From NCBI GenBank assembly GCA_008933995.1, contig WARS01000031.1:2508001-2572000 (forward strand): DNA of 64,000 nucleotides. The letters run 5' to 3'. A program made the position numbers and the translations under genes. Positions 4,792 through 16,907 of this stretch are shown here, piece by piece (positions within the stretch are counted from its first letter, which is position 1; every line of letters starts with the position of its first letter). The DNA is from Datnioides undecimradiatus. Taxonomy: Eukaryota; Chordata; Actinopteri; Lobotiformes; Datnioididae. The notes under the pieces are model-generated. The model saw only the letters and a list, made by a program, of their open reading frames with translations. It did no database searches and was not told where the DNA came from.

Positions 4792-16907
<12,116 letters not shown>

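Follow-up and report, generated by a model that had tools for sequence, protein, structure and literature searches.

The window analysed here, a stretch of 64,000 nucleotides (C479:2508001-2572000) from the genome of the Mekong tiger perch, Datnioides undecimradiatus, contains a Tc1-type element at 14978-16190. The element has the terminal inverted repeats, the TA at its ends and the DDE transposase by which this type is recognized, the TA directly flanking only the right end as assembled. The right terminal inverted repeat (16162-16190, reverse strand) is like that of other copies in the genome (TA, then CACTCACTGGCC). The left one (14978-15005, forward strand) is diverged, its alignment to the right end containing two mismatches and a single gap. 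An open piece of the transposase lies on the reverse strand at 15034-15432 (DDE_3, Pfam PF13358, E 6.4e-13); stop codons interrupt each of the element's three frames, which indicates that the transposase frame is broken. The element is located in an intron of a gene which we take, from its C-terminal protein sequence, to be ankrd11/12-like. Further downstream, a trypsin-family gene at 59121-60524 on the reverse strand (PF00089 in 59121-59609) is presumably haptoglobin-like. A search of the window against Rfam at gathering thresholds gave no match.

Upstream of the element, on the forward strand, lie a (GA)23 microsatellite (14869-14914) and a (TA)5 run (14915-14924), the latter on the target-site side of the Tc1 insertion. 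Directly behind them, at 14925-14942, stands CTGTCTCTTATACACATC, which agrees with the 19-base Tn5 mosaic end in the first 18 positions. The next base, 14943, is C instead of the T of the mosaic end and opens a (CA)19 microsatellite (14943-14980) which leads into the left end of the element. The order on this side is thus (TA)5, the 18-mer and (CA)19CTCACTAGCC. The first-pass annotation had described both the 18-base identity with its differing 19th base and the GA/TA and CA flanks, and described them correctly.

Tn5 transposons carrying the mosaic end are inserted into long DNA in the single-tube long fragment read (stLFR) method of MGI/BGI. A remnant of the stLFR adapter is recognized by a library made with stLFR, by the mosaic-end sequence and by the stLFR tail behind it. 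The genome reads are stLFR reads according to the available text of the genome paper (PMC7235238), and the mosaic end is present in the window with 18 of its 19 bases, base 19 differing. The stLFR tail is absent at this site: C and (CA)n follow directly after the 18-mer, with zero tail bases. The 618 bases around the site contain no N. Elsewhere in the window, the 73-base stLFR adapter has no further word of 12 or more bases and only two 11-base words, and neither the stLFR read-2 adapter nor the two BGISEQ adapters have any word longer than 10 bases.

Copies of the mosaic end in the assembly

For the window, both strands included, the expected number of exact matches to the 18-mer lay between 2.8e-6, from base composition, and 1.3e-5, from an order-2 Markov model; the Markov models, of order 0-5, had been trained on the window after masking of the 18-mer site. 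This is near the two in a million per 64 kb estimated in the first pass. Scaled to 581 Mb, about 0.03-0.12 exact copies are expected. A screen of the whole assembly (581,297,614 bases in 497 contigs), which the first pass had asked for, found 86 exact copies. The published assembly is larger than the screened 581 Mb, with 595 Mb in 4,442 scaffolds as given in the available text (PMC7235238). The full 19-mer was present in 84 copies and its reversal in none. With up to two mismatches, there were 188 matches to the 18-mer versus 75 to its reversal. When the 18-mer was rotated, which keeps its composition, the genome had no exact match and five with one mismatch; over the 54 one-mismatch words this corresponds to about 0.09 expected exact matches, or about 0.07 without C464:7155491, a rotated-control match that overlaps an adapter copy. 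The surplus of exact mosaic-end copies lies far beyond chance.

Many of the copies stand beside a microsatellite. Within the 30 bases upstream, 60 of the 86 copies have one (unit of 1-3 bases, four units or more, total length 8 bases or more), versus 170 of 5000 random window positions. The repeat unit is identical on both sides in 16 of 80 loci.

Base 19 and the Tc1 junction

Prokaryote and viral contigs served as a control and yielded at least 134 and at least 127 matches to the 18-mer, in at least 119 and at least 120 loci, respectively. Among the 261 matches listed, the 18-mer is followed by T in 255, by the contig end in five and by N in one, and by no other base. One listed match (L075) lies inside a contig, without a gap or a full tail, yet has T at base 19. 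In the fish assembly, base 19 deviates in two of the 86 copies, and is C in both, one being the window site and the other the second of two mosaic ends in L303. That A, C or G stands at position 19 in only two genome copies, and in none of the 261 listed control matches, speaks against a remnant in the window. The first of the two mosaic ends in L303 has a tail; the second comes 14 bases behind it and runs into CACCACACACA, a CA-type repeat. The genome therefore has another example of an adapter copy that breaks off after 18 bases in front of a CA repeat.

The Tc1-type element predicts what the junction should look like. Its end was found exactly in 27 copies in the genome, the window's own right end included, and at all 27 TACAC is followed by TCACTGG, with none of them CA-expanded (22 further ends with one mismatch are outside this count). 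As TA stands directly before CAC at every one of these ends, the expected window junction is TA followed by CA without the 18-mer. If the 18-mer is taken out, TA is indeed followed by CA in the window, in agreement with the element, except that the CA run is expanded. The Tc1 end was not found in a scan of viral contigs.

There is one serious rival to an adapter origin, namely that the sequence is genuine and consists of the host flank CTGTCTCT, the target TA and a Tc1 end rich in CA, its identity with the mosaic end being a coincidence. This would account for C at base 19 and for the lack of both tail and gap at the site. The TA/CA-like last ten bases could belong to the Tc1 junction; TTATACAC can also arise at a natural Tc1 junction, and is found at other element ends (L342 on the reverse strand, L348). 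Further, CTGTCTCT occurs 11 times and TTATACACA five times in the window, the site being counted in both. Coincidence is opposed by the genome-wide figures (about 0.03-0.12 exact copies expected; no exact match for the rotated control against 84 full 19-mers) and by the microsatellite context, which the window site shares with the other copies. We had leaned early to coincidence, given that base 19 is C and that no tail follows, and in view of the 261-match control; the search of the fish's own genome reversed this, and we now consider a genuine junction improbable.

What follows the mosaic end

The contexts of all 86 exact copies were read individually. After the mosaic end, 63 go on with TTAGGA and match the stLFR adapter over at least 24 bases, that is, they have at least five further bases of one library adapter beyond the 19-mer. 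The match extends to at least 30 bases in 52 copies, and 12 copies contain all 73 adapter bases, ending CATGCTA. The first 45 bases of this adapter are the forward adapter in an stLFR filter command, as printed in the available part of PMC10989976. The remaining 23 copies, the window among them, have fewer than five tail bases beyond base 19; they leave the adapter within four bases of the 19-mer or earlier, so that the tail cannot name the kit there. A 26-base tail word was found 13 times in the assembly. From the stLFR read-2 adapter, a word of 22 bases was found at three places (L339, L340 and L341). The reversed control had no match in either case. One of the three read-2 words is followed by N. 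Tandem mosaic ends, 29-34 bases apart within one fill, were observed in L276, L303, L307 and L314.

The last 54 adapter bases are exact in 13 of 80 loci. Behind them, N follows immediately in four loci, within 7 bases in four and after 16 bases in one, while the other four join other sequence instead of N. N behind the full adapter would be expected if an extension follows the constant part to its end and no longer finds agreement once it reaches the barcode.

The first pass had named Nextera as the source, and residual adapter from Illumina Nextera or Nextera mate-pair libraries would indeed contain the mosaic end, which is identical in these kits. Contaminants of that kind are real: the 12-base Nextera tail is present in 179 of the 261 listed prokaryote and viral matches. 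The tail which follows in the fish copies is a different one. A Nextera i5/i7 tail or a mate-pair junction was found in none of the 86 contexts, as compared with 63 stLFR tails, and the genome paper names the stLFR kit in its available text (PMC7235238). Nextera is thus contradicted genome-wide, and its probability for the window site is negligible. The more general part of the first-pass reading, a mosaic-end adapter embedded where gap filling fails, is borne out by the 86 exact copies and the 63 tails.

Nextera-tailed remnants in public prokaryote and viral contigs (L001-L239) lie mostly near contig ends. More than 150 bases remain to the contig end on the tail side in 13 of the 261 listed control matches.

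Displaced sequence behind adapter stubs

In eight copies a stub ending AAGACAAGC is followed by one shared sequence of more than 300 identical bases (L330-L337, located in C27, C75, C334 twice, C389, C463, C465 and C483). The native source of these eight fills is L338 (C478:6,181,136), which does not contain the 18-mer. Between 340 and 866 bases were copied from it, and a single N terminates six of the eight displaced copies. The eight fills are false displaced duplications of one unrelated native locus. Copying from L338 behind an adapter stub is the mark of a program led by words of the adapter into a locus unrelated to the gap.

The many copies, and the long sequence common to eight of them, could suggest that the 18-mer belongs to a genuine mobile element or repeat family of the fish, but this is already contradicted and has next to no probability: the left flanks differ among the mosaic-end copies, the part common to 63 copies is the adapter published in the available part of PMC10989976, and the part common to eight is a displaced copy of the locus at C478:6.18 Mb, which lacks the 18-mer, with six of the eight ending at a single N.

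Two other proposals for the sequence behind the stubs were rejected. A second adapter, that of BGISEQ, had been considered because 12 bases behind two false copies, AAGTCGGAGGCC, are shared with it, but these bases are also natural in the native L338. A phage contaminant had been considered for a 396-base piece behind a stub; it gave no match in the phage collection and is a native locus of the fish genome. Two further fills, L279 and L298, have the stub TTAGGAAGACAA and behind it a common sequence, which is followed by N.

A probable origin in gap closing with adapter-bearing reads

We have little doubt that the 18 bases at 14925-14942 were left by the adapter of the stLFR library and became incorporated during short-read gap closing. 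This reading draws on the exact match, on the 86 exact assembly copies and on the tails of the other copies. The 18-mer is very probably an assembly artefact and not biology. As the window copy has no tail and has C at base 19, the case for this site rests on the genome-wide pattern together with the Tc1 junction. We class it as an stLFR remnant by the origin it appears to share with the other copies, and not by a tail of its own.

According to the available text of the genome paper, the reads were filtered with SOAPnuke and assembled with Supernova, followed by GapCloser and then by nanopore gap filling with TGSGapFiller (PMC7235238). Nanopore reads should not carry the stLFR adapter, which makes the short-read gap-closing step the likely culprit. 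Within the short-read part, GapCloser appears a better candidate than Supernova, which may also have been responsible. The nanopore reads applied to the assembly later did not remove the 18-mer, which counts against a remnant.

The following course of events may be proposed. Reads of very short inserts would pass the genomic end into the mosaic end and the constant adapter, and some of these adapter-bearing reads presumably slip past the adapter filter. Where contigs break at microsatellites, a gap closer extending one flank could follow such reads. It might then stop at the barcode and leave a gap, join the other flank early or stray into another locus. In the window, the walk would have started from the (TA)5 flank, taken 18 adapter bases and then joined the (CA)n flank leading into the Tc1-type element.

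In its general features this resembles stLFR adapter read-through, with mosaic end and tail as in the filter command given in the available part of PMC10989976; the window site differs in that it keeps only 18 bases and lacks the tail. Adapter bases are likewise retained in assembled sequence in the adapter contamination of public assemblies described in PMC11536531. That report, in its available part, concerns contig ends in microbial genomes, whereas the fish remnants lie inside scaffolds, with one, L258, no more than 50 bases away from the end of a contig.

Users of this genome should not rely on the lengths of microsatellites or on the junctions where gaps were closed. In 86 places at least 18 bases of adapter are present; in eight of these, copies of an unrelated locus stand behind the adapter stub. 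These sites would be missed by a screen for Nextera tails but are found when the mosaic end or the stLFR adapter is used as the query. The remnants themselves carry no information on fish biology. In the window, the first pass had advised distrust of the repeat lengths and of the left end of the Tc1 element. For the lengths and the junction (about 14869-14980) this advice is justified: the lengths of (GA)23 and of (CA)19 are unreliable, the latter in view of the 27 unexpanded ends. The left end of the element itself does not deserve it, as the repeat at 14978-15005 aligns to the other end.

Whether the eight displaced fills reflect a wider behaviour is evenly balanced in our judgement: adapter-guided gap closing in stLFR assemblies might copy parts of unrelated unique loci into other gaps, going beyond short stubs. 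If this were true in other such assemblies, it would be a source of false duplications and of false repeat families.

The 84 copies of the full 19-mer are divided into 31 on the forward and 53 on the reverse strand of the assembly (two-sided binomial p 0.02), a difference which is perhaps due to chance.
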